DNA from: Trichomonas tenax
Taxonomy: Eukaryota > Parabasalia > Trichomonadida > Trichomonadidae
Assembly (NCBI GenBank): GCA_023091735.1
Contig: JALKBU010000018.1
Span: 62,001-126,000, forward strand
Reading direction: 5' to 3'
DNA length: 64,000 nucleotides
Made by a program: the position numbers and the translations under genes. This document shows positions 44,445 through 56,215 of the stretch, piece after piece. The notes below the pieces were generated by a model, which worked only from the letters and a program-made list of their open reading frames with translations, had not been told where the DNA came from and did not search any database. Every line of letters starts with the position of its first letter. Position 1 is the first letter of the stretch.

Positions 44445-45725
44445 TTTCTGAAAATGGTCACTTTTGAGCATACGTTAAAATTCGCGTTTTCCGTATTTAG
44501 ACTTTTTGGAGTGCGCAGAGTGGTATTTTCGAATTTTAGCAACGGCCCATTCAAAATATTTTTGGATTTGTGATAAACGACCATATAATTTTTGACATTT
44601 TTCACTGCCGCTTTGGAACTATGCTTTGGATAATTTTTGACAGCTATTTTTTAAATTATTTGGGAAAATAAATTTGCTTCGCAGATCACTCAATTGTGTA
44701 TGAGTTAGGCCATGTTTTATCGTGGATTTTCTTTTACATGATATATTTTTGTCCAAACTCATAGAATAAAATGTCTCGATTTATATTTTACATGAAAGAC
44801 ATCTCCCACTTTCACATTTCCACTCATGTGGATATTCATTTCAAATCTCAATTACATCAACACAGTTCATGATATTTTAAGAAATCAAATATTAATTATT
44901 GATATTAAACGATGTAAGATGCATTCACATTCATACCATACAGATGAAAATCGAATGTAATCTGGTTCGATGCTTAAACACATTTAAGCATGAAATTTAC
45001 AATTTAATTTTAAAGTTTAATTCATATATCATTATATTCTAAACATGATTTGAGATCACACAATCATGAGAGTTGATTGAAATGTATTAAAGTTGAAGAA
45101 CAAGAAAATTTCATAATTGGCGTCACTGAATTTTCTACGCCTACTCAAACATCTCGATTTTTCTCCACCAGTATGAATAATTAAGGTCTAATTTTGGTGG
45201 CAAATGAAAAATTTTCCTATCTAAAATGCTGTGGATATATAAAGCATGAAAAATATATTATTCAATATTATATCAAAAAAATGTCTTGATTTATTTTGAT
45301 GTTAACTGACGGGTTATCATTACACATGTTGTTTGCATGCTGTGTGGATGAAAAGTAAGGGTTGCAAATTAAGATTGAATATTTTGCGAATAAAAAGCAA
45401 CACATTTTTATCCTGTAAGTCCAACATTTAGTAGACACTGATTTGTCTGCGTTGAAAATGGACAAATCAAGTGAATAATAACGAGATAAAATCAGGATTA
45501 CTAAAAATGAACAGATTTGGTATTGATATTTAATAGGATACATATGCAGGTGATAAGCCATCATATTATCATCATCGCATTCAGCTTTATCTCACCCTTT
45601 TTAACAAAAAATTATTTAATTTTTTTCATTGAAATAGAGACTTAGAGCTATTTTAATTCAGTAATTTATTTTCAAAATATATACACATATTATATATGAA
45701 GCAAGAACATATGTTAACAAAAATA

Positions 45726-45737
45726 TTTGGCGGGAAA
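45726..45737 (+). promoter_or_regulatory. Consensus E2F site TTTGGCGGGAAA
   Basis: Matches the single-site E2F consensus exactly and lies 23 bases before the ATG of a 29-codon ORF, the same distance class as the palindrome before the gene at 29191. Confidence 0.45.
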
Positions 45738-45760
45738 ATCGTAAAAGTAACAGAAATATA

Positions 45761-45850
45761 ATGGTCAGCAAATACACAACAGAAGTCATCGCAATACATG
45801 GAAGTAGTGCTCCTTGTGGCGTTGTGGCACCAGATGCTTGTAGTTGGTGA
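45761..45850 (+). other. 29-codon ORF behind an E2F site
   Basis: Begins MVSKYTTEVIAIHGSSAPCG and ends in TGA after ACSW. Slightly GC-richer than the flanks. It may be a micro-protein or the 5' remnant of a decayed cell-cycle gene. No homology is claimed. Confidence 0.2.
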
Positions 45851-46438
45851 TCACAATTTTAATTTACAAACAAGCTCATTCACTACAAATCAGATCGAAG
45901 CAAGCTCGCTTGTATGCTAGGAAATGTGTAGTGATAGATAGTTATTGTAACTGAATTTGTTGCAAGCTTAAGTGATGGGATGTGTCAAAATAACTTGAAG
46001 TCAAAAAAATTTTTTTGATGAATGAATGAAAGAGTGAAATCAAGTGAAAGAGATACAAAATCGCTGAGAATCAAAAAGAAAGCTGACAATGAACAAGAGC
46101 ATCCACTATTTTATTACAATAAAGTTACTGAACTGCTTTTGAATAAAGGGATATTATAAATATTTATTATAATTGTTTAAAAAAGTGAGATTTAAAAAAT
46201 AAAGTTTATTTTTAAAATATTTTTTATTTTTATTCCTAATAAATGAGTTATGTAGCTTTGAATGATTTATCGAATAATAAGCATCAAAAATTAATTGAAA
46301 AAAACAGGACTTAAGTCTCCCCCACATTATAATCGATACCACAAAGTATTGAGTGAATACTTATAATCACATCGTTATAAAGGTAAAATTTCATATAAAG
46401 AGATCTCAAACTTTATTCAGGATTTGACTTTCCGGCTA

Positions 46439-46903
46439 ATGAATACTGATGCCGGCATGAATTCTAAACCTAAACTTTCACATGAAGTGAGAAAAGAAAT
46501 GCATGATTTAACAAATGTTGACGCAGAATACACAAAGAAATCTGTTGATAGGGATATAAGGCGTGAAACGAATGCTATCACAAATGTTGATACAGGATAT
46601 AAAAAGAAATCTAAAACTAGTGAGCAAAAACATGAATCATTTAATAAAATCAAGTCTGCAGGCGATCAGCTGAGAGAAGCGAAAAAAGTTATTAAAAGCA
46701 TTGCTGACAAACCACTTGCAGGTGAAAGATGGCTTAAGAAAGATGAAAAGAATCCTAAAAATGATGTTAAATATGGAAATAGATTCATCGAGTTCAATGT
46801 TGAAGTTCTCAACGATACCGAAAGGGAATATTTCAATGAGCACCTCGGCAATGTTTTCGTTAGTTTATTAAATATGATTAAAATGAACTCCTCGCAGAAA
46901 TGA
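46439..46903 (+). CDS. Maverick-island hypothetical protein
   Basis: 154 residues from the first ATG (the frame is open a little further up without one). N-terminal half is polar and helical with an internal duplication: ITNVDTGYKKKSKT-type and LTNVDAEYTKKSVD-type units at ~25-45 and ~48-65. The C-terminal half contains a lysine-rich stretch and a helix with paired hydrophobics (NEHLGNVFVSLLNMIKM). No family recognised. First of six plus-strand island ORFs; 15 bases separate it from the next. Confidence 0.5.
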   Translation: MNTDAGMNSKPKLSHEVRKEMHDLTNVDAEYTKKSVDRDIRRETNAITNVDTGYKKKSKTSEQKHESFNKIKSAGDQLREAKKVIKSIADKPLAGERWLKKDEKNPKNDVKYGNRFIEFNVEVLNDTEREYFNEHLGNVFVSLLNMIKMNSSQK

Positions 46904-46918
46904 CTTGTTATTTACAAC

Positions 46919-47341
46919 ATGAATGGAAAGTTAGAGGGCACAACATTAAATATTAGAAACATTGGATGCTTACTTCATCAATTACGCACTGAAAACTGCA
47001 TTTCTGATGTAGAGGCTGAAGCATTAGTTATTATCGAATTACATTATGATTTCTTCCTTGATGAGATTAAAAATTTAAATTACATTTGCTTATTCGACCT
47101 CACTGCATATCCTAATTTCACAATTGATGATGTCAAGAAGGGAGAGATAAAACATAAAACAAAAGAGGAAATAAGGAGTCAGAAGAAACTGACAATGGAA
47201 ATTACACCAGGCACGCAGTCACTCGCTTATAAGTCTTACTTTGTGGGAAAGAAGTCTTACATTGATCTACTCACTACTGAAAATTTCATAATCGTTGTCA
47301 TGAATCAACTGCTGCCAGGTCATAATTTACTTATTTATTAA
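46919..47341 (+). CDS. Maverick-island hypothetical protein
   Basis: 140 residues starting MNGKLEGTTLNIRNIG. Mixed alpha/beta composition with an acidic helix (VEAEALVIIELHYDFFLDEI) and a C-terminal hydrophobic strand (ENFIIVVMNQLLPGHNLLIY). Intact frame, unlike most neighbours. No known domain. Probably a virion or assembly protein by position only. Confidence 0.5.
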   Translation: MNGKLEGTTLNIRNIGCLLHQLRTENCISDVEAEALVIIELHYDFFLDEIKNLNYICLFDLTAYPNFTIDDVKKGEIKHKTKEEIRSQKKLTMEITPGTQSLAYKSYFVGKKSYIDLLTTENFIIVVMNQLLPGHNLLIY

Positions 47342-47366
47342 AAAATAAAATTAATTTAAAAATAAG

Positions 47367-47579
47367 TCAAAATTTAAGTACATCTTTTTCATATATGACC
47401 TCTACCCTTAATTTTATAGGTGATTTCAGTTTAATGGGCACATTGAATGAATCCACTAATGTAAAACTTAGATTTAGGAGATCAAATGATTTAAACATTA
47501 CATTCACAGTTGCAGAATTGTTACGATAGGTATGTTTAATTAATGGTAATCTTACATCTTTCACGGAATGCCCCGATGA
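47367..47579 (-). pseudogene. Possible small minus-strand island ORF, no start codon
   Basis: An open minus-strand stretch of ~70 codons reads KDVRLPLIKHTYRNNSA and further on SPIKLRVEVIYEKDVL, which has alternating hydrophobics like a small beta-protein, but the only ATG is internal. Either a broken gene or chance. Confidence 0.22.
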
Positions 47580-48686
47580 TCACGACACCGCTTTTTAGAA
47601 GAAATACAAGAACAGACAAATATAAAAGTGGGTAAAATATATACTCAGGAAATAGATATAAATGATAAAGACTTAATGACAGAATTGAATAATAAGGCAG
47701 ATGTCAACCATGAACATCAAAACATCGAACACTTAACGGTTCATGAAATTAGGGGATTTATGAAAGAAGGAAGAGAAAGCGAAACGATTAAAAATGAAGA
47801 TGGAACGGAAACTATAATATTACCTAAAGCTCCTACATATGTGATTCCTAATTTCACGGATGGATTAGAAACAAAGGCGGTAATAATTAAAAATAATGAT
47901 GAAATTATCAATGTTGAACAGTCATTAAACAATAAGGCGGATAAAGTCATAAATGACATGTTGAGGTCAAATTTGACAAATGTCATGAATGCATTAAATG
48001 ATAAAGCCGACAAGAAACAATTAGTAGAGACCTTAAATAAAATTGAAACAAAGGCAGGCAAAACAGAAGTCCAAAAAGTTAAGGAAGAATTAGATTATAA
48101 CACTCATGAATTATCGTCAAGAATTGAACAAAGAATCATTGATGTAAGAAATAGTCCTAGCCATAAAGCGTCGACATTAGATTTAGTGGAAGCATTAAAT
48201 AAAATAGAAACAAAGGTAGCAAACGCAAAAATTGAAGCACTAATGACAATTTATCCTGTAGGTTCAATATATACATCGATGAATCCAACAAATTCTGCTC
48301 AATTATTCGGATTCTGTGAATGGAATCAAATAATCGATCGCTTCTTATACTGCGCTAATTCATCAAGAGAAACAGGAGTAAGTAAAAAGATTACAATAAA
48401 TAACTTACCCGCATATAATCACTACTTTTCGGATACAACATCAACGGCAGGAGATCATACTCATTCAATCAGTAATAGAGGTTATTACGGCTGTGGTACA
48501 GGCGGTAAAGAAACGATTTCACGTTATGATATTTCATCAGATTCCAGAAAATACAACGCCGGTTTAATCATTGATCATGCAGGAAGTCACACACATTCAG
48601 TTTACAGAAACACTGCCGACACTGGTTCAGGCACTGATTACATGCCGCCATTTATGACCGTTTACGCGTGGTATAGGGTTTATTAA
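47576..48686 (+). pseudogene. Tail-fibre/collar-like structural protein, frameshifted 5' end
   Basis: The long frame (47580-48686) lacks a usable start; an ATG at 47576 in the next frame reads MITTPLFRRNTRTDKYKSG and merges with it near 47630, pointing to one early frameshift. Residues after that hold repeated NKAD-type units (LNNKADVNHEHQ, LNNKADKVIND, LNDKADKKQ) like the trimeric shafts of phage tail fibres, and a C-terminal head: YPVGSIYTSMNPTNSAQLFG, then WNQIIDRFLYC, HTHSI, HTHSV and a final MPPFMTVYAWYR. This is the T4-type short-tail-fibre/collar receptor-binding fold. Its presence suggests host-cell attachment by the former virus-like particle. First in-frame ATG of the long frame is at 47676. 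Confidence 0.68.
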
Positions 48687-49026
48687 TAAACCATCTTTTG
48701 ACTTCATATTTTTGAAAATTAATTTTTGCCCTTTTCCCGAAAATATTTTGATCTACCTACCAACAATAGCATGACAAAATAAATTATATCACTAATGGAA
48801 AAATAAATTATATCAAAGATTCAAAATAAAAAAATTAACGCTGATTTTGAAATTTATGGAATCTTTAATTCCCTATAGAGGAGCAAGGGCTCTTTTTAAG
48901 AGCTTGACATTTTATAAAGTCACAAGTTTTAAAATTAATAATAACGTTTGTTTTGAAATAAATGAAAACTTTAATTCGTACATGGGGGACCTGAGTGTGC
49001 ACCATTGACAAGGTCTGACGTATGTA
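48687..49026. other. Intra-island spacer with direct repeat
   Basis: TTTTGAAATTTATGGAATC (48845 on) recurs in similar form from 48951 (TTTTGAAATAAATGAAAAC), each followed by TTTAATTC. A short hairpin (GCTCTT/AAGAGC) lies near 48890. The stretch to ~49080 contains GC-richer sequence not typical of the island, perhaps a later insertion. Confidence 0.35.
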
Positions 49027-49302
49027 ATGTGTTACATTACTAACATTTTGCGGGGCTACGGCGAAATCGACTGCAAAATGTTTATTACTAACTATATTAA
49101 TTACTTTAAGTTTAATTTGCAAAATGATAATGGTATTAATCCGTTTGTAAATGTTTCCAGTCAAGATCAGAAATTAGTAGATCTACAAAAAGTTTCACAG
49201 ACATCACCAGTAAAGTTATCACAAACAGTTTCACCAAATGATATGACAGATGATCCAAATAATCCTAACGCAGAAGATATTAATCAGTATCAAGTAAAAT
49301 AA
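49027..49302 (+). pseudogene. Maverick-island protein, probably 5'-truncated
   Basis: 91-codon frame. Only the second half looks coding: a polar stretch with VSSQDQKLVDLQKVSQTSPV and a Asn/Asp/Pro-rich end (DDPNNPNAEDINQYQ). The first ~30 codons derive from the GC-richer sequence just upstream, so the original 5' end may have been replaced. No family recognised. Confidence 0.35.
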
Positions 49303-49382
49303 TTTAAAGATATGCGAGACAAATTGTCGCAGCCCAATTTAATAAATATATTGATCCAATTATAATTTTTATTTTTGGATAA

Positions 49383-49606
49383 ATGTTAGCAAAAATAATT
49401 AATGAAATTAATACAGTGAAAGAATCTATAGTAGATATTCTAACAACTATCGAAATCGTTAACGAAATTATTAACAATGGTCCTATTGTTGAAGAAATTA
49501 AAGACAAATTGCTGATAAAGTTAAAGAAATGGATGCTGATGGTACATTACCAAGTATATTATCAGATAATTTTATAACTAAAAGTGATGAGATGATGAAT
49601 AAATAA
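49383..49606 (+). pseudogene. Coiled-coil island protein, frameshifted
   Basis: Starts at an ATG behind the island promoter-like block (ATTTTTATTTTTGGATAA). MLAKIINEINTVKESIVDI begins a coiled coil; near 49512 the frame shifts and coding-like sequence continues in another frame (VKEMDADGTLPSILSDNF) to TAA at 49604-49606. One lesion suffices to explain it. Confidence 0.45.
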
Positions 49607-49632
49607 TGTTAGAAATAGTATACTAAGAAATA

Positions 49633-50037
49633 ATGATGAACAATGAAATTAAGATTTTTCAATAGTATTAACTTTAAATCAGATGTTTTATTATTGGCTG
49701 GGAAAGTTGGACAAAACGATAATATAGAATGGAATGATGGTTATACTATTAGTGAAATAATATATTATGGTCTACTTATAAAGGCTCAGATACACAATTT
49801 TCTAATTGTAATATCGAATATTGGTCTTTTCCAATAGAAACAATCCATCATAATATTATTAATTATACCAGAAAATTATTTGTTGTGCAACCTGAAGAAC
49901 AATTTAATGAAAATATTGATTTAAGATATGAGCTTCAGTTAACTACAGCTGATAATAAATTAGTTATTCTTCCAGTATATAATACTTTTCCATCAAATAC
50001 TATGCTAGATTTTTATGTATATGCTATTGGAAATTGA
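49633..50037 (+). pseudogene. Island structural protein, two frameshifts
   Basis: Coding-like sequence in three successive pieces: a start at 49633 (MMNNEIKIF), a middle piece in another frame containing LLLAGKVGQNDNIEWNDGY, and a last piece containing YWSFPIETIHHNIINYTRK and LILPVYNT-like strands (KLVILPVYNTFPSN) up to TGA at 50035-50037. Mostly beta-strand composition, so possibly a fibre or capsid-decorating protein. No family recognised. Confidence 0.45.
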
Positions 50038-50386
50038 TATAAAAATTTTTAATAAAAATAATATTATATTTAATGATACAATGTTAACAATTAACCAAGA
50101 ATTCAAAATAAAAATTACGTGAAATTAAAAAAAATACTATTAATAATGGAATAACTACATAATAATTATGTTGGGTTGATTGTTATCCCAATTTTCTCAG
50201 CAATTATTTTTATAGCATCATAATGATTTAGTAATATCGTATGAATTTCATGAATTTTTTGTTTTATTTTTTCATTTATATTTTCACATGTAATTTGATT
50301 GTTAGCTATTTCCTGTTGTAATTGTAAGATATGAAATGTTGGAAGTCCCGAAATAAAATTTATTAGAAAATAAACTCTAATAAACT
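50038..50386. other. A+T-rich convergent spacer in island
   Basis: Between plus- and minus-strand island genes. A tandem AAACTCTAAT repeat lies at about 50373-50396. No gene supported. Confidence 0.4.
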
Positions 50387-50800
50387 CTAATAAACTAATA
50401 AAAATCTGGCCAATTGAAATTTATAATATTTACCAAAATTTTCTCCTTTAACATTTGTAAACCAAATTCTGAATTTTCTCATTGGTCTAGTTATCTCATA
50501 TTTTGCCAAATGTCTTGTATCGGGACCATTACAGAAACATATAGCATAATCAAAATATTGGTCACGTTCAACAAAATCAGCATGGGCAACAGCATAAAGA
50601 ACCCATGTGTTATCAATATTAACTTTAATATCTTCCACAATTATATATTTACGATTCGTATTTGCTGTAAATTCTGGTGGCAAGTTTACTTCCAAAGTAT
50701 TTGCCCATAAATATGTTTTAGTAGGTTCTTGGGATAACCCTTTAAAGATTGTGCTGCGGTCATCATAGATGATGTTCGCGCGAAAGTTTTCATTGAACAT
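50387..50800 (-). CDS. Probable Maverick minor capsid (penton-like) protein
   Basis: 137 residues, intact frame, ATG at 50800 preceded directly by the block TTTTTATTTTTATTAAA. Strand-rich sequence with a strand pair NRKYIIVEDIKVNIDNTWVL and a long strand KYYKFQLARFLLVY at the end fits a single jelly-roll. It follows the capsid-like gene on the same strand by 28 bases, the usual order of major and minor capsid genes in Mavericks. The length is shorter than well-known penton proteins, so this assignment rests on position and composition. Confidence 0.4.
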   Translation of the reverse strand: MFNENFRANIIYDDRSTIFKGLSQEPTKTYLWANTLEVNLPPEFTANTNRKYIIVEDIKVNIDNTWVLYAVAHADFVERDQYFDYAICFCNGPDTRHLAKYEITRPMRKFRIWFTNVKGENFGKYYKFQLARFLLVY

Positions 50801-50828
50801 TTTAATAAAAATAAAAATTATATATTAT

Positions 50829-52178
50829 CTAAATTATTTTATGGGGCTTGTGAACCTTATGGGAATCTTCATATTCCTTAGTACATCTCAAACCACTTGA
50901 AAGATCTGATGCGACTAACTGGTACTGTAAAAATCTTGCGCCAAGTGTTGAAATAACTTGATCTGGTATATTTTTACCATTAACTGTTAATTGGACATTA
51001 TCATAAATAGGATTTTCAAATACAGTATAATCGTTATTATGTTTAGGGAACATTATTGAAATACATGTTACGTTATTCAATGGAATGTTAACTGTTGATT
51101 GGACACCAACTTCTGTAGCAGCTAATGGAAATGCGTTATATTCTAATTCTTGTGATGTAATAATTATTGGTGAATTTGATAATTGGTTACGAATTAATGA
51201 TAAAGCATTATCAGTAATATTAAATCCGAGCATATTGGACTTAAGCATTGTGATGGACATACTATTAATCATTAACTTAAGATTTCCTGGTGTTGCTGTA
51301 TATTGAATTATATCGTTAGTAGAACCAGTTGTTGTTTTAGAAAATTTTACGATACCCTTTGCTGTATTATTTATCTGAATAAATTAATGTGTAAAGCATT
51401 CTGAAGGATTTTTAGTAAATATACCATCAATTTGTTCATTTTCTCTTATTAGCTTATAATTCTTAACTTTTTCTGGGTTTATTGAACTCCAAACTAATCC
51501 CTTAGATATTTGATAAAACTTTAATTCAAGTTCACCAATAATTTTATTAACAAACATATCGAAAGCTTGTAAACACAAAATATCTTCAATTGGAACATTA
51601 AGTTCAAAGTTTACTTCCTTATATCCGTTATTTTCTTTGAAATCCATTAAATTAACGTATGTTCCAGCAATAGATTCAGAAAGATTTTCAACGTTTTCAT
51701 ATAATGAATGTGTATATTTCTTAGTCTTTTTCTCATTATGTTGTTTGATAGTACTATAAGCAAATCCTTCACGTACGCATTCATTTTGCTGATATCCTGT
51801 AGATCTGTTATTACACATTATTTCTAATTGATCAAATATTTGATTACTTGATTTAAATCCAACGAAAAGTTTACACAAATGTTCTTCATCGGTAAAATAT
51901 GTAGAAAGTCCATCTAAGTGAAGATTTAATTTAGCATTAAATGTAAGAAATCCATCTGTTAATTGTGTGATATCAAAATCAGAATGTGTTATAGCAATTA
52001 TTGTTTCTTGTCCTTTGGTAAATGGTACCGATTGGTCATGGAAATCAACTGTACGTAATTGAAAACTTCTAGTACCATCATTAATTTGTACCAGGGATTT
52101 TAGACTTTCAAAATATTGCGCTACGTTACCCTATAAAGTGTTGTTGTTATTTAGCCTTGTATTAAATGCCGAATTCGT
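50829..52178 (-). pseudogene. Maverick major capsid protein-like, three lesions
   Basis: One continuous minus-strand frame of ~450 codons, broken by TAG at 52131-52133 (codon 16) and TAA at 51384-51386 (codon 265), and with ACG (52176-52178) where the start codon is expected just after the promoter-like block. Coding-like strands run throughout: FQLRTVDFHDQSVPFTKGQ and FLTFNAKLNLHLDGLS early, NFELNVPIEDILCLQAF in the middle, then NMLGFNITDNALSLI and DNVQLTVNGKNIPDQ late. Length, two strand-rich halves and location next to a probable minor capsid gene fit a double jelly-roll major capsid protein of Maverick/Polinton type. Assignment is by layout, not alignment. The gene cannot make a full protein. 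Confidence 0.58.
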
Positions 52179-52239
52179 TTTAAATAAAAATAAAAAACAT
52201 AAATAATGGTATTAATTTTGAATTTTATTTATAATTAAA
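52179..52239. promoter_or_regulatory. Divergent late-type promoter of the island
   Basis: 61 bases separate the capsid-like gene (minus) from the small basic gene (plus). On each side an A/T block (TTTTTATTTTTATTTAAA on the minus strand, TTTTATTTATAATTAAA on the plus strand) touches the start-codon position. Confidence 0.5.
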
Positions 52240-52509
52240 ATGGCTTGGGAATTTTGGAAAAAGCTTAAAGATGTTGCTAAGAAAAGTGGCAGAGGAATTA
52301 AATCTTGGGTTAAATGGGTAACAAATAATGTTGTTAAACTTGCAGCTAGTGCGTTTGGTGCTTAATTCGGTGATAAACTTAAGGGAACATTTCCAAAAGT
52401 TGGATTTGAATTTGGTGTGAATAATAATGGTGAGAGAAAACCTGTGATAAATACTGATGATGTTGTTCGGGATGTTGGTTCATGGGTTACTTCTAAACAA
52501 AAACGTTAA
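52240..52509 (+). pseudogene. Small amphipathic basic virion-type protein, one internal stop
   Basis: ATG at 52240, in-frame TAA at 52363-52365 (codon 42), and then open in the same frame to TAA at 52507-52509, 89 codons in all. The first part has an amphipathic, tryptophan-bearing helix (MAWEFWKKLKDVAKKSGRG, then WVKWVTNNVVKLAASAFG), the second a Gly/Asn-rich segment and basic end (TSKQKR). Small membrane-active or DNA-condensing proteins of this kind sit near capsid genes in Mavericks and adenoviruses. Not visible as a long ORF because of the stop. Confidence 0.5.
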
Positions 52510-52544
52510 ATATTGGTCCAAAAATAAATTTTTATTTTTATTAA

Positions 52545-52607
52545 ATGGGATTAATAATTTTGCTATTTATTATAGTTGTATATTTCAAGAATAAATCAAG
52601 CGTGTAA
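52545..52607 (+). CDS. 20-residue single-helix membrane micro-ORF
   Basis: ATG GGA TTA... encodes MGLIILLFIIVVYFKNKSSV and stops at TAA 52605-52607. A clean hydrophobic helix is followed by a basic end, giving a type with the tail in the cytosol. The ATG is directly behind AAATTTTTATTTTTATTAA, the same block as other island genes, which is the main argument that it is expressed. It overlaps the 3' end of the next minus-strand gene by 12 bases. Confidence 0.4.
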   Translation: MGLIILLFIIVVYFKNKSSV

Positions 52608-52856
52608 CACCAAATTACATTCGTTAAGTTTCAATATGATATTATTTAAAATAGTTATAACTTTATTTTTCTTAGCACGTTTTAGTTCAGAAATATTTTC
52701 ATGAGCACATCCGGAAATTTTCAAAAGATTTTTATAAAAAGTATATAATTTATATTTAACATTTTCTTCATCATCAACTTTAAGATTTCCACCAATAAAA
52801 ATTTCATTAAATTGTTCCTGTGATAAGTTAAGAATCACTTGTTCTGTGTATTCCAT
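52596..52856 (-). CDS. Maverick-island hypothetical protein
   Basis: 86 residues, intact frame, mostly helical and charged (ELKRAKKNKVITILNNIILK). Acidic middle (GGNLKVDDEENVKY). No known domain. Rightmost island-type ORF; its ATG faces the spacer before the host coiled-coil gene. Confidence 0.5.
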   Translation of the reverse strand: MEYTEQVILNLSQEQFNEIFIGGNLKVDDEENVKYKLYTFYKNLLKISGCAHENISELKRAKKNKVITILNNIILKLNECNLVLHA

Positions 52857-53215
52857 TATTTATTAGAGAAAAAAAAATATAAATTTTTTCATAACATATA
52901 ACATATAAAAAATATTTTTTATTTTATAAATTTCTAGGAAACCATTAATAAATCCCTACCATAACAATTTTAATTATTAATTAAACAATATATTATAATA
53001 ACAAAATATAAAAATTTATTAGGATTTCGATATAAATTATAGGGAAATTGTTTATTTTATATATTAGGGAAATTATGATTATAGATATTCTCAGATTGCT
53101 GATTTATTATGGGTGTACAAAATTTTGGACTCCATAATAAATCACAATCTGTATACTACTAAATCTATAATCTTCTTTTGATACAAAATCAACTTTCCGT
53201 TTTATTTTTATTAAA
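52857..53215. other. A+T-rich spacer at the right edge of the island
   Basis: Very A+T-rich, with a short direct repeat ATAGGGAAATT/TTAGGGAAATT near 53040-53080. No terminal inverted repeat matching the left side is seen. The last 20 bases (TTTTATTTTTATTAAA) repeat the island promoter-like block in front of a host gene. Confidence 0.4.
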
Positions 53216-56215
53216 ATGAAAAATAGCGACGAAAATCTGGAGACAAAAGACTCCGGAGATGTTGCTTCTGATGTGGAACAGTTGAAACTGAAGAACGAGC
53301 AGTACATTCAGCAGATCCAAACGCTTCGAAATCAACTTAACGAATCATTAGAATTCGCACAACAGAACGAATTATTGATCAAACAAAACACAGAACTTAC
53401 TGCAAAACTTCGCAAAACCGAAGCTTCTGCTGATGATATGCAGAGAAGACTCGAAATTACAATGAAATCAAACGAAGAATTGCAAAATCAACTCGAAAAT
53501 CTAAAATTGCAGAAAGAAAACGAATTAAATCAGAAAGGAGCAACTGAAATGAACAAAATGAAGTTAAATTTCGCAGAACAAATACAAAAATTAAATCAAC
53601 AATTGGAACAGAATGAGAATTTACTCAAAAAATCAAATTCAGACATCGAAGCATTCAAAAGTAGCATCAATTCTGTCATATCTGCAGCTGGACAAGCTTT
53701 CCAAAGGACATTTGATAACATTGATGAGCTTTCTGATTTTCTTTTTCAGCAAAGCAGTGCCACAACAACTCAAATATCGCATATGGAGAATGAAACCACG
53801 GAAATTATCAATACATTTAAAAAACAATTGCTGAAAAAGCAAGAAAGACTGAAAGAAGAGAGATCTCTTCGCAAAGCTCTTGAATCGAAATACGCAGAGT
53901 TAAAAGAACAGTATTCTGTCGACAAACAGCAATTTGAGCAGAAAATTGCAAAATTAGAATTAGAAATATTGGACAATGTTAAAGAGACAGAAAGACTCAA
54001 ATCTGAGAACGAACACAAACTTAAGATGAAAGATGATGAAATACAGATACTAAAAGACAATATTGAAAATATCAAATCTCAAATTCCTTCAGAAGCAGAT
54101 ATTCGATCTAATTCCGAGAATTCATACAATCTCTGCAAACTTAAGCAAGAAAATGAAGAGCTTAATGCAAAAATTGATGCTTTGATGATAGAAGTCTCCG
54201 AACATGAAGGGACATCTTCATCAATACATAAACAAGCATTATCATTGACATCTCAGCTTAAATCTCTTGAAATAAGCTATGACAGCTTAAAGAAGAAGCA
54301 TCAAACTTTAATGAACGACTTACAAGAGAAAACAAAAGATCTTGATAAATTAAAAGTCGAAAAATCCGCACTTTCATTAGAAAAAAGTTCAGCAGAAGAA
54401 AGTCTCAAAGCTAATTCGATCAAATTAAAGAATTCAGAACTGCAAAATCAAAAATTACAGTCAATATTGGATGAAAATAACAACAAGCAGCAAAAATTGC
54501 TTTCGACAATCGAAACATTGCAAAACCAATCTCAGACACACCAAAACGAAATGAAACAAATGATTGCTGTTAGAGATCGTCTAATCACTGTTTTGAAGCA
54601 TTCTGGTGATATTCTAAAGAGCCTTGAAGCTAAAATAACACAGTTATCAGCACAAAACAAAGCTTTCAAAAAATCAATCAAAAATACAGAAAAGAGATTA
54701 GCTCAAGAACTCGAGAAATCTCAAGATGCGTTCGAAATACAACCAAATCTATTCTACGCCGAGGATTTCCCTCGTGAATTATGCACAAAGATTGCAGAGT
54801 TTGCAAATAACATTAAAATACCAGCATCTTCTAAGATAAAGAGTGCAATCTCTTTGATATCTAAATATTACAACGACATTATTCAAGGAAAAACAAATGA
54901 AATCAAGAATTTAGTTGAAACACAAGAGAAACGCGAGTCAACACTTGACAAATTCCTTTCCCAGATCGGATCGTTATTTGAAAATTCGTCTTTATCATGC
55001 GAATCAGTGATAAATGACCCTGTTTCTGCTTACGAAGTCACAACAAGAGCAAATAAATTATTTGTTGATCATATTGGCACAACTAATGCCAAAACCAGAG
55101 TTGAAGAGGATCTTCTTGTGATGCTAACAAAACTTGAAGTCAATAACGCATCTGAAGGCGAGAAAATGATTGGAGAATTATTCTCCAATATTAATGAGCT
55201 CAAGAATGAACTTAGTAATGAAAGGAATAAATTAAAGGACTTCAAGAAGGTATTCAAACAAGTTAATGCTGAATCGAATTCCATTGCATCCTCGCTCAGA
55301 AAAGATCTCGCTGACAGAGACAGGGAGATTCTATCCTTGAAGGAAGATGCTGCAAGAGCTCAAACAGACTTAAGAAAAGCAAATAACGAAATAACTCAGC
55401 TCAAAGAAGAAAACAACAACATGAAAGAGAACACAGAAAAGCTTAAAGGAGATTTCCAAAGAGTCAAAGCAAGTATGAAGTCTAAATACGATTCCCAAGT
55501 TGAAAACGTCACGAAACAAGTCCAACTTAAGCTCGATGCAAAAGATAATTCAATGAATGACATGAAATCAAAAATCAGAAACTTAGAAAAAGAATGCGCT
55601 GAGTTAAGGCGTACCGTACAAATGATGCGTGATGCCAGGAATGAACACGATAAACAACAGCAGTTTATTATTGATCAGTGCGATAATAATGTTAAAGAAG
55701 TTAAACTTCAATGCGAGCGTGAGAAAGAGATGATTAAAGCACAGTATGATAAATACATTACAGAAATCAAAGATAAAAACAATGATCTCGCGAAAGCGCA
55801 TAGTGAGGTTGTTCAAAATTTGCATGAAGCGGAAAATAAACTGGTTCAAGCCAATGCTAAGCTCACAGAAACATCAAAGCAATGCGATGCTTTGATGCAG
55901 AAGAATGAATCATATGCCGAGGAAATAGAAAGAATTAAAAGAGTGATGGAGATGAAAGAAAGATCGAATATTCTTACAACAGAAATGAAATTCGAAACAA
56001 TGCTTGAAGAACAGAGATCGACATTCTTTACTGAAAAGAGGAATCTTATAGGTTACGTTGTACAGCAATTCAGACAGTATTTCGATGCAAGAAGAGAACT
56101 CGATGATGATTGCCTTCGTGATGTTATCTCGCAGGCAAAACGTGACTTGGAAGCTTTGACGGCACAAGAGAATGCTGCAAAGAAAATCTTGAAGATGAAT
56201 TCTATTGTTTGTTAA
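53216..56215 (+). CDS. Large coiled-coil protein
   Basis: 999 residues, nearly all coiled coil from residue ~18 to ~960 with short breaks (for example near 510-560, FYAEDFPRELCTKIAEFANN, and ~600-660). Rich in Glu, Lys, Gln, Asn, Leu heptads. The break near 510-560 is a conserved-looking globular helix region. No ATPase or motor domain, so not an SMC or kinesin; a golgin, spindle or cytoskeletal tether is more likely. TTTTATTTTTATTAAA directly before the ATG resembles the promoter-like block of the neighbouring island. Confidence 0.82.
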   Translation: MKNSDENLETKDSGDVASDVEQLKLKNEQYIQQIQTLRNQLNESLEFAQQNELLIKQNTELTAKLRKTEASADDMQRRLEITMKSNEELQNQLENLKLQKENELNQKGATEMNKMKLNFAEQIQKLNQQLEQNENLLKKSNSDIEAFKSSINSVISAAGQAFQRTFDNIDELSDFLFQQSSATTTQISHMENETTEIINTFKKQLLKKQERLKEERSLRKALESKYAELKEQYSVDKQQFEQKIAKLELEILDNVKETERLKSENEHKLKMKDDEIQILKDNIENIKSQIPSEADIRSNSENSYNLCKLKQENEELNAKIDALMIEVSEHEGTSSSIHKQALSLTSQLKSLEISYDSLKKKHQTLMNDLQEKTKDLDKLKVEKSALSLEKSSAEESLKANSIKLKNSELQNQKLQSILDENNNKQQKLLSTIETLQNQSQTHQNEMKQMIAVRDRLITVLKHSGDILKSLEAKITQLSAQNKAFKKSIKNTEKRLAQELEKSQDAFEIQPNLFYAEDFPRELCTKIAEFANNIKIPASSKIKSAISLISKYYNDIIQGKTNEIKNLVETQEKRESTLDKFLSQIGSLFENSSLSCESVINDPVSAYEVTTRANKLFVDHIGTTNAKTRVEEDLLVMLTKLEVNNASEGEKMIGELFSNINELKNELSNERNKLKDFKKVFKQVNAESNSIASSLRKDLADRDREILSLKEDAARAQTDLRKANNEITQLKEENNNMKENTEKLKGDFQRVKASMKSKYDSQVENVTKQVQLKLDAKDNSMNDMKSKIRNLEKECAELRRTVQMMRDARNEHDKQQQFIIDQCDNNVKEVKLQCEREKEMIKAQYDKYITEIKDKNNDLAKAHSEVVQNLHEAENKLVQANAKLTETSKQCDALMQKNESYAEEIERIKRVMEMKERSNILTTEMKFETMLEEQRSTFFTEKRNLIGYVVQQFRQYFDARRELDDDCLRDVISQAKRDLEALTAQENAAKKILKMNSIVC

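Follow-up and report, generated by a model that had tools for sequence, protein, structure and literature searches.

What kind of element leaves a cluster of virion-type genes beside a host gene, and how was it reduced to them? The question is raised by an island within a window of 64,000 nucleotides (the whole stretch of DNA analyzed here), part of a 133-kb contig (C639) in a searched genome of 53.4 Mb and 1,528 contigs. Named relatives of the sequences here come from Histomonas meleagridis and Trichomonas vaginalis, which points to a parabasalid host. An initial annotation described a dead Maverick/Polinton island, reduced to its structural half and holding virion-type genes only. Our analysis indicates that the island is very probably an endogenous Maverick/Polinton copy, integrated upstream of a host gene and then reduced by end loss, internal deletions, and point changes. 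The copy holds a right terminus, capsid, fiber, amphipathic, and 86-aa genes, and a PolB remnant; it has no left terminus and carries three internal junctions (Table 1).

Table 1. Features of the element copy (window coordinates)
Feature	Position	Strand	Basis
PolB N-terminal region remnant (ORF 46439-46903 and ORF 46919 to ~47199)	46142..47199	+	Identity to C795 and C479
C-terminal tail of PolB, fused to the N-terminal remnant	47200..47341	+	tblastn match to C1102 frame
Tail-fiber-like protein of 336 aa in an open frame, Gp10_C domain at C terminus	47676..48686	+	PF21939, E 8.8e-17
Fragments of two element genes, broken in several frames	49027..50037	+	Matches to sister copies; junction at ~49094
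Candidate minor-capsid (penton) position gene, 137 aa, open frame	50387..50800	-	Conserved small gene at this position
Major capsid protein frame, broken	50829..52130	-	Relatives in copies; double jelly-roll by relatives
Small amphipathic basic protein, one in-frame stop (52363-52365)	52240..52509	+	Relatives in copies
86-aa protein, open frame	52596..52856	-	Relatives in copies
Subterminal hairpin, palindrome with covarying stem	53090..53151	-	DNA fold z -7.0; covariation
Right terminus of element, last base 53160	53139..53160	-	Homology stop in ten copies

Extent of the element and its right terminus

Homology of the island to other copies spanned 46142, a truncated left edge, to 53160, the end of the element. 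Its true extent is therefore wider than the bounds first given (46439 to 52856). When the island was compared with twenty flank pieces by blastn, homology stopped at 53160 or no more than 2 bp from it in all ten copies, and the copies carried unlike sequence past the equivalent point. Allowing up to 2 mismatches, the genome contains 241 occurrences of the terminal motif (reversed pattern, 0) and the window a single one, at the right end; a search of the window with the terminus pattern found no left terminus. Alignment to other copies, the route to element ends and terminal repeats proposed in the initial annotation, thus fixed the right end, and the left end is absent.

The family has terminal inverted repeats, seen as six paired ends with matching termini, and the window copy has the right end only. 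Target site duplications of Maverick/Polintons are 5 to 6 bp long; identical 5-bp flanks accompanied four of the six convergent terminus pairs and neither of the other two. The left end of C759 bears a tandem pair of terminal motifs. On C1227, convergent termini enclose a PolB match, and no capsid match is among those listed.

A repeat at 45107-45969, close to where the island is truncated on the left, was considered as a left terminal repeat and ruled out, being a separate family without the terminus pattern. Some 30 other genomic sites match it at 91 to 98% identity, and its family includes a back-to-back inverted pair on C1146. To the right of the element lies a host gene for a coiled-coil-like protein of 999 aa. 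Given that its ATG begins at 53216, the element sits within the upstream region of this gene.

Virion-type genes of the island

The proposed grouping of virion-type genes was borne out: capsid, minor-capsid-position, fiber, and amphipathic frames lie together, along with the 86-aa frame, each with relatives in other copies. The capsid frame begins with a codon other than ATG, contains two in-frame stops (one just before 52130, the other at 51384-51386), and lacks its C terminus at 50862/50863, where sister copies are ~0.32 kb longer; "dead" was therefore an apt description. The C-terminal frame of the capsid gene had 62 matches in the genome, of which 33 were at ≥76% identity (window and fragments counted); the other 29 were at 30 to 62%, most of them belonging to a second lineage with roughly one-third identity. 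Values of dN/dS between copies were 0.31 to 0.47, and this protein constraint on the capsid genes suggests that the family once had a particle stage.

Sequence searches with the capsid gave no match in Pfam or PDB, and PHROGs returned only chance-level hits (E 0.012 and 0.043). A first structural model, built on 16 sequences, was of low quality (pLDDT 46) and was replaced by a model from a deeper alignment. In structure prediction the relative P0030, to which the window pieces are 60 and 62% identical, was modeled as a double jelly-roll. The capsid family is thus predicted to be of the double jelly-roll type, and the jelly-roll sought in the capsid-like frame was found through the predicted fold of its relatives, the window gene itself being broken. 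DUF4106, the published T. vaginalis capsid family, had no match in the genome, where the controls were equally silent. IMG/VR scans with the capsid (one sequence and one alignment) and the fiber confirmed no relative. In one sister copy (C363; L007 1074-2339) the capsid frame is fused N-terminally to another stretch, which we take to resemble a transposase type, perhaps a mariner insertion.

The fiber gene matched tail families in PHROG (best E, 1.7e-17) and had at least 262 matches in the same genome; relatives were present in T. vaginalis among the matches listed (120 of 572). Its dN/dS was 0.25 and 0.29 against two copies, and a Pfam scan showed no collagen or Peptidase_S74 match in it. On C1374 (L047), a fiber gene 79% identical to that of the window lies near a frame that, by eye, resembles the second capsid lineage, so fibers may accompany both capsid lineages.

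The minor-capsid candidate, among 14 of its 22 matches, was 76 to 92% identical to C1479, C613, and C305 and 50 to 60% identical to other copies, a split that makes the family look mosaic. Its dN/dS was 0.39 and 0.64; it had no Pfam or PHROG hit and a single chance-level one in NCBIfam (E 0.043). When six other copies were checked, the stop codon in the amphipathic gene was common to C968 and replaced by a sense codon in five. The 86-aa frame was 83 to 95% identical and free of stops among 14 of its 24 matches, three of them short, with dN/dS of 0.22 to 0.55 against seven copies. In the window copy, the fiber, minor-capsid-position, and 86-aa frames are all open.

A PolB remnant and the breaks in the copy

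The initial annotation saw no replication gene. This claim did not survive comparison with C479, C795, and C1102, whose matches revealed a PolB remnant. The stretch made up of ORF 46439-46903 and most of ORF 46919-47341 showed nucleotide identities of 89% (C795) and 86% (C479). In C479, no stop interrupts the frame between the equivalents of the window ORFs and the point where PolB begins; in C795, a stop and a frame change occur earlier, yet the sequence is open across that point. The next frame of C479 is PolB (E 2e-38 to the C916 protein, which has a PF03175 match at E 1.3e-31). By tblastn, the end of ORF 46919-47341 matched a frame of C1102 (L036:4023-4187; 47% over 55 columns; E 1.2e-9) that Pfam left unnamed and that corresponds to the PolB C terminus (E 4e-35 to C916 PolB). 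Because the window ORF compared directly with C916 PolB gave no significant match (E 0.8), the assignment runs through two intermediate copies. Judged from these sequence matches, PolB is present as a remnant without its catalytic core.

Four breaks were located, at 46142, ~47199/47200, ~49094, and 50862/50863. The mutual match of C795 and C479 continues ~250 bp further left than that of the window, indicating that the window copy is truncated at 46142. At ~49094 the matching copies change: C831 and C1297 match up to 49037 and 49094, respectively, and C1479 and C916 from 49094 onwards. Sister copies hold more or other sequence at each of the three internal junctions. The losses are thus several separate breaks and not the removal of one half, as "reduced to its structural half" implied; likewise, the description as a Maverick island with virion-type genes only is right as to a dead Maverick/Polinton with virion genes and wrong in the word "only," given the PolB remnant. 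Decay by several breaks and end loss can leave what seems a pure structural island and still holds a remnant of replication. On C795 (L043), the PolB N-terminal region runs almost straight into the fiber gene with edges unlike those in the window, a second such shortening.

Integrase, ATPase, and protease genes

No integrase was recognized in the island, in agreement with the initial annotation, and no packaging ATPase was recognized there either. In sister copies, two frames (L038 and L030) gave weak rve integrase matches below the curated cut-off (E 4.9e-4 and 2.3e-3); the genome holds 33 rve matches, 20 of them over the cut-off, none linked to the present element family. A Pox_A32 match in a sister copy (L021:5746-6591) had an E value of 1.3e-4 and 22.0 bits versus a cut-off of 22.8. 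Sequence searches of PDB returned nothing for the integrase frame and three chance-level hits for the A32-like frame, and general Pfam scans gave no match to an adenovirus-type cysteine protease. Between PolB and the equivalents of the genes from 49094 onwards, C916 carries further genes, an integrase-like frame among them; none of these was recognized in the window.

A hairpin inside the terminus

When folded as DNA, the 80 bases internal to the terminus gave a 62-nt hairpin (z, -7.0 in the window and -3.9 to -6.6 in five other copies); for one of these six, 1 of 200 shuffles folded equally well. We aligned 20 termini (14 of 16 termini plus six right ends; six left ends were left out, as were L016 and L023, which are second views of C1515 and C613). 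Across this alignment, 91.6% of pair cells were paired, compared to 50.5 and 52.0% after a one-column shift. The covariation score was 0.178 versus 0.092 in shuffled alignments, none of 500 reaching it (20 termini, kinship ignored). Two counts were weaker, since some shuffles also reached them: pairs with double changes (5; 28 of 500 shuffles) and additional pair types (14; 44 of 500). The RNAalifold covariation term was small (-0.78 of -11.04 kcal/mol).

Genome-wide, one outer pair was G-C in 47 termini and T-A in 56, with 4 and 6 mispaired; it was kept in 103 of 113 termini (Fisher P = 3e-20, kinship ignored). Inner arms scored 8.05 against their own partners, whereas shuffled partners averaged 6.16 and never exceeded 6.81 (0 of 2,000; 79 of 113 termini, kinship ignored). 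The 34 termini omitted followed no fixed rule, and many are alike, so the inner-arm test rests on a partial set. Exact inner complements were far from universal in the 79 termini, being present in 0 of 3 with arm TTTACCATGG, 6 of 10 with TTTATCATGG, 4 of 6 with TTTTTCATGG, 2 of 2 with TTTAACATGG, and 7 of 12 with TTTTTGGGG. Two subfamilies could carry part of the covariation signal, and self-templated correction of the palindrome would give the same pairing pattern without selection.

We tentatively suggest, giving the idea a little under even weight, that the ends act as structural signals: ~9 nearly fixed terminal bases, then a 62-nt hairpin in which pairing is conserved more than sequence. 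If so, these PolB-encoding double-jelly-roll elements would have a phase of single-stranded or cruciform DNA in which an integrase or terminal protein recognizes the hairpin, or the hairpin is copied onto itself, in contrast to the ends described for PolB-bearing bidnaviruses. No covarying hairpin in Maverick termini was reported in the titles and abstract openings of the open-licence papers listed. The copy itself is unremarkable, one decayed member of an element type already known; the terminal hairpin deserves further attention and, if general, would offer a testable handle on how Mavericks recognize their ends.

Origin of the copy

These data are best explained if a Maverick/Polinton virus copy integrated just upstream of the host gene, then lost one end and suffered point changes and internal deletions, as which we interpret the junctions. 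In its intact form the element would have used a protein-primed PolB for replication, a double-jelly-roll capsid for packaging its DNA, the tail-fiber-like protein for attachment to cells, and an rve-type integrase for integration. Because none of the copies seen ran from terminus to terminus with every gene, this form is pieced together from several of them. The window copy is incapable of such a cycle because the left end, PolB core, integrase, ATPase, and a whole capsid gene were not found. That virion-type genes make up the remainder would follow from where the breaks fell and not from any observed selection.

The breaks might instead be assembly artefacts, a full-length repeat having been collapsed or chimerized. 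The element family is repetitive, and the copy matched changes along the island (C479/C795, C831, and C1479), as it would in a chimera. The available text of one study cautions about poor assembly of repeated endogenous viruses, in which stops may be assembly errors (PMC10120064). The stops in the window could partly be such errors. However, the island lies inside a 133-kb contig with a long open host frame at its right, C795 shows a similar PolB-to-fiber shortening with other edges, and the stop in the amphipathic frame recurs in the C968 copy; we consider an artefact unlikely.

Less probable still is a small non-autonomous satellite, made of virion and fiber genes only and mobilized by full Mavericks. 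Such an origin would fit the open fiber, minor-capsid-position, and 86-aa frames and the shorter terminus-bounded stretches of 1.3 kb (C170), 1.7 kb (C1399), 3.0 kb (C1209 and C759), 6.6 kb (C943), and 7.8 kb (C1227) among the termini listed. It accords poorly with a window that lacks a left terminus and holds a PolB remnant and a broken capsid frame, and the set of junctions was found in no other sequence among the loci compared. The same three open frames, together with purifying selection between copies, might be read as a capsid/fiber cluster domesticated by the host for cell defense. We rate this slightly lower still: the capsid gene is broken, the amphipathic gene is interrupted, the fiber family has at least 262 matches, and the constraint is a property of copy pairs generally and not of the window copy. 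A decayed Maverick/Polinton copy thus remains the preferred reading.

Comparison with known elements

Double-jelly-roll capsids (DUF4106) have been reported for T. vaginalis, with 34% estimated for Tritrichomonas foetus, in the available text of PMC10120064. Like the Maverick/Polintons of these two species, the present family has a parabasalid-type host, many copies, a double-jelly-roll capsid gene (here by prediction), a family PolB, and terminal inverted repeats (PMC10120064). It differs from T. vaginalis Mavericks in that DUF4106 was unmatched (with silent controls) and the window copy is truncated, and the covarying terminal hairpin has no mention for T. vaginalis or T. foetus Mavericks in the portion of that paper available (PMC10120064). 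Compared with the virophage capsids of Mavirus and Sputnik (PDB 6g45 and 3j26), sequence identity was 8 to 10%.

Fiber proteins of polinton-like viruses have been described, including collagen and phage-tail-repeat fusions in T. vaginalis, in the available text of PMC12220804. As in these viruses, T. vaginalis elements included, a phage-tail-type fiber gene lies inside the element here; the window fiber ends in Gp10_C, in contrast to the collagen and phage-tail-repeat domains of the T. vaginalis elements (PMC12220804). The initial annotation held that fiber genes bear on whether protist Mavericks form particles. They do, but T. vaginalis fiber-like genes and parabasalid capsids were already published (PMC12220804; PMC10120064). 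Finally, the family resembles bidnaviruses in combining a Polinton-type PolB with terminal repeats (PMC4061559). Bidnavirus terminal repeats form no parvovirus-type hairpins, according to the available text of that paper (PMC4061559), whereas the termini described here are predicted to fold.
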